Part shown: in pieces, positions 24,628-33,201 of the stretch
How the letters are laid out: every line of letters starts with the position of its first letter
Position numbering within the stretch: the first letter of the stretch is position 1
Assembly (NCBI GenBank): GCA_030749035.1
Contig: JASMKV010000486.1
Span: 1 to 33,456, forward strand
Direction: 5' to 3'
Source of the DNA: Myxococcota bacterium
Lineage (GTDB): Bacteria > Myxococcota > XYA12-FULL-58-9 > JASMKV01
Length of the DNA: 33,456 nucleotides
The notes under the pieces: generated by a model
Databases searched by the model: none
Seen by the model: the letters and a program-made list of their open reading frames with translations, nothing else
Told to the model about the DNA's origin: nothing
Made by a program: the position numbers and the translations under genes

Positions 24628-27600
24628 ATGAGAGAGCTGCTGGCGAAATATCAATTTATGGGGATGACCATACCGTCGTGGGCGCTCTTCTTTGTTCTTT
24701 GCGCTTTGATTTTGCCAGCCTGTTTGCTGCCACTCAATGAAAATCGTCGCTGTAATATCCATGTGGATTGCGATGGTACAGATCTGTGTGTGGATGGTGT
24801 TTGTCAGACGATTCCCTGTAATGGCGATGCGGATTGTCCTGGTTCTTTAGCCTGTACATCTGGTTTATGCACCGAGGAAAGCTGCAGCGTGAACAGCGAT
24901 TGTGACGATGTGCATGCGTGCTGGGAAGGCACCTGCCAATGGCCTTGTGAGATCAACAACGAATGCGATTGTGGACAAGATGCAGATTGTGGTGGGAATT
25001 TCTGTTCAGGCAACCCGGTTTGTCTGCGTGGGGAATGTATTGGCTTGGGCAACCCTTGCGATGCGGGCGGGGAGATATGCGAGAACACTGCTGAACAATG
25101 TACGCCTCTTGCCGCCAGCGCCTGTGAAGTCAATGCAGATTGTGACGATGGCCTTTTTTGCAATGGTGAGGATCTGTGTGTTGAAGGGCAGTGTGTGCAT
25201 AAGGGGAACCCTTGCACCTATTTAAAACCCTATTGTGACGATGAACTCGACATCTGCAGCCATTGGCCGTGTGATAACCACGGCGATTGCAACGACGGCA
25301 GCATTTGTAACGGTCAGGAGATTTGTTCGGCAGGCAAATGCATTTTAGGGACCAGCTATCCCTGTACTGCTGAAACCACCTATTGTGACGTTGAGGCAAA
25401 TTTATGCACCTGTGTACCAGGAGACACCTCCTGTGCGCCCTGCAGTACCCATGATGAGTGTGCCGGCGGCCAGCTTTGTGATGTGGGTCAGCCTATTTGT
25501 TACAACAACACCTGCGCGAAATACATTGTGGATTGTGTACCCGGTTGTCGATGTTCAGTCGATGGCTGTCTTTGCGAAGAAACTTGCGAGAACGATGAAG
25601 GTTGCGCCGATGGCGTCTTTTGTAATGGCCGTGAAGGCTGCGTCGACGGTGTGTGTCAAACAGTGGGCGCATATCCCCCCTGTGCGATCGATACACCATC
25701 GTGTCAGGAAACGTTCGATGTTTGTGGCTGTTTTGGCGCAGGGGATTGCACCACTTGTGAGCGTGATGATGAATGCGCTTTCCTGGACCAATGTTTGAGC
25801 AAAGGCTTTTGTGGTGGCGGTGTGTGTCAGCGGCAGATGATTGACTGCCCTGAAAATTACACCTGCGATGCAACATCGAACACCTGTGTGTGCGCACAAG
25901 ATTGTGGGTGCAACACGCATGCGGATTGCGCCGATGATAATTTGTTTTGTAACGGGCATCCGGCTTGCGTGGATGGCCAATGCAGCAACTCAGGCAACCC
26001 GTGCCCCGATGGCGTCACCTTTTGTGATGAATCAAGCGATATGTGTACGTTGGGCGATGACGATGACGATGACGATGACGATGTGGTGATGAATTGTCAG
26101 GCCCTGACGACCCTTTACCCCCAGTCATGGCCGGTGGCAGGGCGCATTGATCCAACCTACGAATTTTCTTTTGTGGCGGCAGGTTACCAAGGATATCCAG
26201 ATGCATGCGCATATTTTGATGTCTATCAATATTTGAGTATCGTGCCTGTGGATAATCTTGAAAGTGTGCGGGACGATTGGACCTTATTTAAAAGTGAAGA
26301 GGCTTACGACAGCTGGGCAACGCAGGCGACCAAGAGCGGTGCTGCAAATCAGGCGATTTGGGGTGAATGGTCGCACGAGTGTTTAGATAAATACGCTTAT
26401 TGGATTATCGTGAGCTACGGTAAAAATGCCGATGGAACCCGTGTCTCCGGGGTGCCGGATTTTGGTTCGACGGTTGTTCAGCCGAACCCTGCGTGCCTTG
26501 GTGACGATGATGACGATGATAATGATGACAATGGTGATGATGATGACGATGATGATGATGACAATGGTGATGATGATGACGACGACGATGACGATGATGA
26601 CGATGATGATGATGATGACGATGATGATGATGACGATGATGACGACGATGGCGCCGAATGCACCAGCCCCGATGATTGTACCGATGATGGGGTCTATTGT
26701 AACGGCTTTGAGAGTTGCTTTGACGGTCAGTGTTTAAGCCTGGGCAATCCTTGTGGCGCGCCCAACGCGCAGTGCGATGAGATAAATAATGTCTGTTGTC
26801 ATGCGGCAGCACCGCAACCACCATCGACAAGTGAAACCTGTGCTGGTGACGACGATGACGATGACGATGACGATGACGATGACGATGACGACGATGACGA
26901 TGACGATGACGATGACGACGATGATGGTGCCTGTACCGTTGTGGGCACAGCGATGGTCAACAGCATCACCAGTCCAGTGGAGGTGAGATACTTTAGTGGC
27001 TCAAGTCAGAATAAGCACCCAGAAGGTCGATACCAAATCCGCTATATTACCGGGACTTTTAAACACGGTGGAGGCAGTTCTGCGACAACCGGATATGCGA
27101 CAACCGTGTTTCCTTATGCGGGTGAAATCGATCAGAGCAATACGCTGGGCTGGACCGGTTATGCGGACAAAGCAACGACCATCACAAAAACCCTGGCTTC
27201 ACCAACAGCGCGATTCACACTCAATCATGACGGCAAATCGCGTATCGGGGTGGTGGCCGCCGATATTCAAGGCGCCTACAACGACAACACGAGTGGTGAA
27301 CCGAATCCTCTGTACCGCCTTTGTTCTTTGCCGGACAGTGACGATGACGATGATGACGATGATGACGACGATGATGACGATGATGACGATGATGACGACA
27401 ACAGCAACGCCTGCCCAGATGATGGCTGTACGGGTGGCACCTACTGTTGTCCGACGAGCGATACGTGCATCGCCAATTGTGCCGAGTGTGAGGGCAAAAC
27501 CCAGGCGCATGAGAATACTTGTGTGGCCTGTACGGAGGATACCCATTGTTCTCATTTAGGCACGGATGTGTGTACTGGCTTTGGGGCTTGTTTGGCACAG

Positions 27601-33201: not shown

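Follow-up and report, generated by a model that had tools for sequence, protein, structure and literature searches.

Relation to described cysteine-rich surface proteins

In Myxococcus xanthus, TraA combines a type I signal with a PA14-like domain and a MYXO-CTERM tag (PMC3820747), and none of the three was recognised in the 2,857-aa protein analysed here. This protein can be likened to the cysteine-rich stalks of other bacterial surfaces, among them the repeat region of TraA, but is not itself TraA, and neither a PA14-like domain nor a MYXO-CTERM tag was matched in Pfam or NCBIfam, whether its whole open reading frame (ORF) or pieces of it were scanned. With the MXAN_6577-like (NF041328) and GCE-repeat ORFs, which in relatives encode 700-2,100 aa with many GCE units, it shares the GCE block; none of those loci, however, unites DC, GCE and CGDG repeats with poly-Asp. 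The same DC repeat (CNGxExCxxGxC) occurs in proteins of Planctomycetota and Deltaproteobacteria/Myxococcota, where one ORF can reach 3,593 aa and 538 Cys. These differ from the present protein in their linkers, as none of the 77 fetched DC loci (from a scan of named genomes with N-terminal alignment, and mostly from the groups just named) has a poly-Asp tract of six or more in the same ORF as DC repeats. The acidic Cys repeat myxo_disulf_rpt (TIGR02232; CDDGN...GDGC) is found elsewhere in this genome, for example in 19 copies in a gene of contig C311 close to a paralogue, but gave no match in the 2,857-aa ORF.

Combinations of two repeat classes do exist, as DC with CGDG in Desulforhopalus singaporensis. 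A full-length homologue was absent from 38 related genomes, where matches to the GCE block are common, and a search by block order found none in these genomes or in the 77 DC-repeat loci. The sequence-only reading, which held each repeat type to be known but their combination not to be a described system, is thereby upheld on both points. The repeat classes are individually known, while their combination and linker system is a lineage-specific variant; the protein is of a broadly familiar surface kind, and its linker and module-shuffling pattern is unusual.

Frame, probable lipid anchor and modules

The window analysed (33,456 bp) is the entire contig C486 of a genome of 527 contigs and 3.97 Mb, from an uncultured myxobacterium-like organism; matches of the MYXO-CTERM-like, myxo_disulf_rpt and MXAN types in this genome point to Myxococcota. 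The ORF, on the forward strand at 24628-33201, starts with ATG and has zero internal stops in translation, confirming the single long frame first noticed; an alternative TTG start lies upstream and in frame at 24574. The motif LILPAC at residues 27-32 probably represents the lipobox, imperfect as it is, with a non-canonical Pro at -2. The usual lipobox consensus does not allow Pro at this position, and ordinary lipoboxes are found in the paralogues on C311 and C230 and in the downstream gene. The lipid anchor originally proposed thus stands as a probable motif but not as a perfect consensus.

Repeat mapping bore out that the repeat classes lie in separate blocks: there are seven modules of the DC type, 11 GCE units (residues 1143-1730) and about ten units of the CGDG type (residues 2111-2300 and 2582-2672; Table 1). 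The earlier description of a surface-type lipoprotein mosaic is supported.

Table 1. Features of the 2,857-aa ORF and of the gene that follows it (positions in the window)
Feature	Position	Strand	Remarks
Signal peptide and probable lipobox LILPAC	24628..24723	+	translation; putative lipidated Cys is residue 32
N-terminal DC-repeat module, residues 42-475	24751..26052	+	78 Cys beyond lipid Cys; paralogue alignment
Poly-Asp tract, 9 D	26056..26082	+	
140-aa domain, 4 Cys	26083..26502	+	no family match
Poly-Asp tract, two or three sub-tracts, short N/G interruptions	26503..26649	+	
DC cassette, 66 aa, 10 Cys	26650..26847	+	end-to-end counterpart on C459, 91%
Poly-Asp tract, 26 D	26848..26925	+	C459 copy 14 D
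138-aa lineage-specific domain (SITSPVEVRY), 2 Cys	26926..27339	+	copies on C459 (86%) and C311 (31%)
Poly-Asp tract, 20 D	27340..27399	+	
Cys-rich segment, 30 Cys	27400..27900	+	
Poly-Asp tract, 15 D	27901..27945	+	
GCE repeat block, 11 GCE units	27946..30012	+	NF041328 19.6-22.4 bits, cut-off 100
Mixed Cys-rich stretch, GCE block to CGDG block	30013..30948	+	
CGDG repeat block, first part	30949..31260	+	
Poly-Asp tract, 8 D	31261..31284	+	
CGDG units and short Cys-poor stretch, 16 Cys	31285..31707	+	
Poly-Asp tract, 8 D	31708..31731	+	
Gly/Ser/Met-rich segment, 4 Cys	31732..31884	+	
Poly-Asp tract, 7 D	31885..31905	+	
C-terminal region, 32 Cys: globular part, second CGDG block, 185-aa C-terminal domain	31906..33198	+	no family match
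Second CGDG block, inside C-terminal region	32359-32643	+	
Second gene of same family, lipobox LQGC	33236..33456	+	begins 34 bp after stop, cut by contig end

Scanned at full length against Pfam and NCBIfam, the ORF gave nothing above cut-off, and family matching required splitting it at the poly-Asp tracts. DUF7107 (PF23416) then matched the N-terminal DC module narrowly above its gathering cut-off (25.9 against 24.6 bits), while the MXAN_6577-like family NF041328 missed its cut-off of 100 bits with 22.4 bits on the whole and 19.6-21.5 bits on sub-segments. No domain of known binding function was found by these scans of the whole and the pieces. Structure prediction of the repeats, proposed at the outset, succeeded in part: AlphaFold modelled a pair of consecutive DC modules with confidence (pLDDT 85, pTM 0.49), but for the CGDG block the model (pLDDT 35) speaks neither for nor against calcium loops. 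The predicted DC structure had no Foldseek match in the PDB (best E 4.6), and PDB sequence searches with profiles of the 138-aa SITS domain and the DC repeat gave weak matches only (best E 0.71 and 0.22, respectively).

Poly-Asp linkers and cysteine parity

The poly-Asp tracts of the ORF number nine or ten, according to whether short interruptions are taken to divide a tract. GAT and GAC codons are mixed in most of them, indicating that the tracts are Asp-coding and not the product of pure triplet slippage. The repeat periods inside the tracts (3, 6, 9, 12, 21, 27 and 33 bases) are all multiples of three, so that the frame is kept when tract length changes.

After removal of the signal peptide and the lipid Cys, the Cys count is even in all nine Cys-bearing segments delimited by tracts, an outcome reached in only 0.04% of 200,000 trials in which an equal number of cuts was placed at random. 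This suggests that the tracts separate disulphide-closed units. In the whole set of poly-Asp ORFs, an even count is found in 42 of the 48 complete segments, where a fair coin, a rough baseline for Cys parity, would give 24. The genome also encodes DsbA-like proteins (VKOR was looked for and none was found), and the earlier suggestion of a disulphide-braced protein gains support from these and from the parity. A DsbA-like lipoprotein on C286 (L183:1405-2187, minus strand) has an in-frame TGA at the first Cys of its CxxC (DFQ-TGA-PYC) and is probably a selenoprotein, since the genome holds a tRNA-Sec above the Rfam cut-off.

Throughout the genome the Gly-Asp6 pattern occurs 50 times, in every case (50/50) in the Asp-reading frame, and is spread over 20 ORFs. 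An export signal is present in all 14 tract-bearing ORFs with an assessable N-terminus (a lipobox in 11, an N-terminal membrane segment in two, and in one a Sec signal together with a MYXO-CTERM-like tail), as called by reading the translations, the automated lipobox test being cruder and missing or misplacing several. The cargo of poly-Asp ORFs includes a pectate lyase, a phosphoesterase, a subtilase with dockerin, a DUF1592-type protein and an M23-like protein scoring below its cut-off, and in the MYXO-CTERM-like protein the tracts lie between domain and sorting tag. Dockerin type I is carried by the subtilase and a similar repeat by a poly-Asp lipoprotein (L080 and L087, on C282 and C524). 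In each of the 145 further genomes sampled from the phylum (145/145) the Gly-Asp6 count is below 50, with 0-1 in each of seven genomes of the same order, 4-40 in genomes of family f21 and a maximum of seven per genome outside that family. The f21 tracts were considered as lipoprotein linkers and rejected, the 11 places sampled lying mostly in frames that do not look exported. In the present genome, their occurrence in 20 ORFs, exported wherever the N-terminus is readable, and their scarcity in relatives mark the tracts as a lineage trait of exported proteins, not peculiar to the 2,857-aa ORF. No account of poly-Asp linkers in proteins of this kind turned up in the literature searched.

Paralogous family, shared cassettes and alternative readings

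The 2,857-aa protein is a member of a paralogous family and not a stand-alone system. At least five proteins have the N-terminal module in common, namely this one, the product of the downstream gene and those on C311 (1,280 aa), C230 (LamG-bearing, 930 aa) and C211 (1,837 aa). The last has a Kunitz domain, and an in-frame TAA follows its lipobox. In an alignment of four proteins the module is 35-41% identical to three paralogues of the same genome, with the Cys aligned. LamG/ConA-like domains are found in the C230 protein and in the C459 protein that shares a cassette with the ORF. The Kunitz/BPTI domain of the C211 paralogue (L076:2274-7784, minus strand; E 5e-17) is accompanied by GE-repeat linkers; this domain is unusual in bacteria. 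On C311, L011:6224-8521 is mostly N in sequence.

We consider it fairly likely that the protein is a mosaic lipoprotein that is anchored in the outer membrane and belongs to a lineage-specific paralogous family, its disulphide-closed modules being strung on poly-Asp linkers as a scaffold for surface display, adhesion or matrix. A conserved Cys-repeat module would adjoin the lipid anchor, and the remainder would form a chain of autonomous disulphide-closed modules with poly-Asp between them. The linkers may serve as flexible acidic spacers whose mutual repulsion holds the modules apart and extends them outward from the cell surface. A display or adhesive role is suggested because relatives carry lectin-like LamG domains, and surface display, adhesion or a matrix scaffold would be the most likely function. 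Self-contained disulphide units combined with a single length-variable linker would offer bacteria a route to long surface proteins.

Residues 675-904, comprising the DC cassette and the 138-aa domain, are 83% identical at the protein level to a stretch on C459, within an otherwise unrelated protein that bears LamG. This homology starts and stops at poly-Asp tracts on both sides and in both genes, in alignments whose masking discourages continuation beyond a tract, and it spans an internal tract that differs in length between the copies (Table 1). The dN/dS of the shared cassette is 0.16 (95% 0.09-0.26, on 203 codons only), showing purifying selection on both copies. The C211 gene contains a duplicated 58-aa cassette between tracts (86% identity, from split segments only) and a shorter relative lies on C55; for C459 and C55 the check used masked proteins that had been left unsplit. 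The 138-aa SITS domain was found in none of 192 other genomes of the phylum, nor did a scan of viral contigs detect it. Conceivably, (GAY)n tracts serve as frame-preserving seams along which disulphide-closed modules are duplicated or swapped between unrelated surface-protein genes, as exon-like cassettes with variable linkers. We offer this tentatively, as a possibility and not a result, because independent cassette events are few and masking biases the boundaries. If seams do drive shuffling, they would give bacteria a testable parallel to domain shuffling and account for mosaic diversification between close strains.

A calcium-dependent fibre or matrix, in which calcium bound by poly-Asp and CGDG loops would make the protein stiffer or cross-link it, appears unlikely. 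The CGDG units, judged by eye, often read D-x-C-G-D-G-x-C-x-x-x-E, a spacing like that of EF-hand loops, and the protein, with 336 Cys, is highly acidic (415 Asp and 164 Glu against 76 Lys+Arg). However, no calcium-binding family (EF-hand, EGF_CA, TSP3) exceeded its cut-off, EGF_CA reaching 14.0 against 27 bits, and poly-Asp serves this genome as a general-purpose linker, present also in enzymes without a fibre role, so that it does not point to a special calcium fibre. For the dedicated fibre or matrix envisaged by the sequence-only reading no support was obtained.

In Bacteroidota, acidic motifs direct surface lipoproteins, and the signal must sit at +2 to +6 after the Cys (PMC5080379). That the present tracts are surface-export signals of this type is very improbable: the tract-bearing proteins of this genome are exported, but the first tract lies about 445 residues beyond the lipid Cys, and tracts recur internally and at C-termini. 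Hardly credible is a fusion of separate genes at low-complexity tracts during metagenome assembly, the objection foreseen for so giant a frame, since despite a fragmented genome with tracts common to many genes exact matches to the seven tract-bearing contigs compared do not exceed 55 bases, no 61-mer is common to the ORF and any of 21 fetched stretches and no 41-mer is repeated inside it (so that fusion by read overlap is unlikely), the frame is intact through all tracts, and similar mosaics occur on C311, on C211 and on C459, where the protein closes with a poly-Asp tail and stop of its own.

The 2,857-aa ORF has further neighbours in the window. At 22421-23851 (minus strand) lies a gene for a divergent lipoprotein with acidic Cys repeats, in which CEDxGPDYCEWxPGC units recur along with WGDWDDEE linkers and no Pfam match was obtained, and at 20852-22078 (minus strand) a caspase-like (Peptidase_C14) protein is encoded adjoining the lipoprotein genes.
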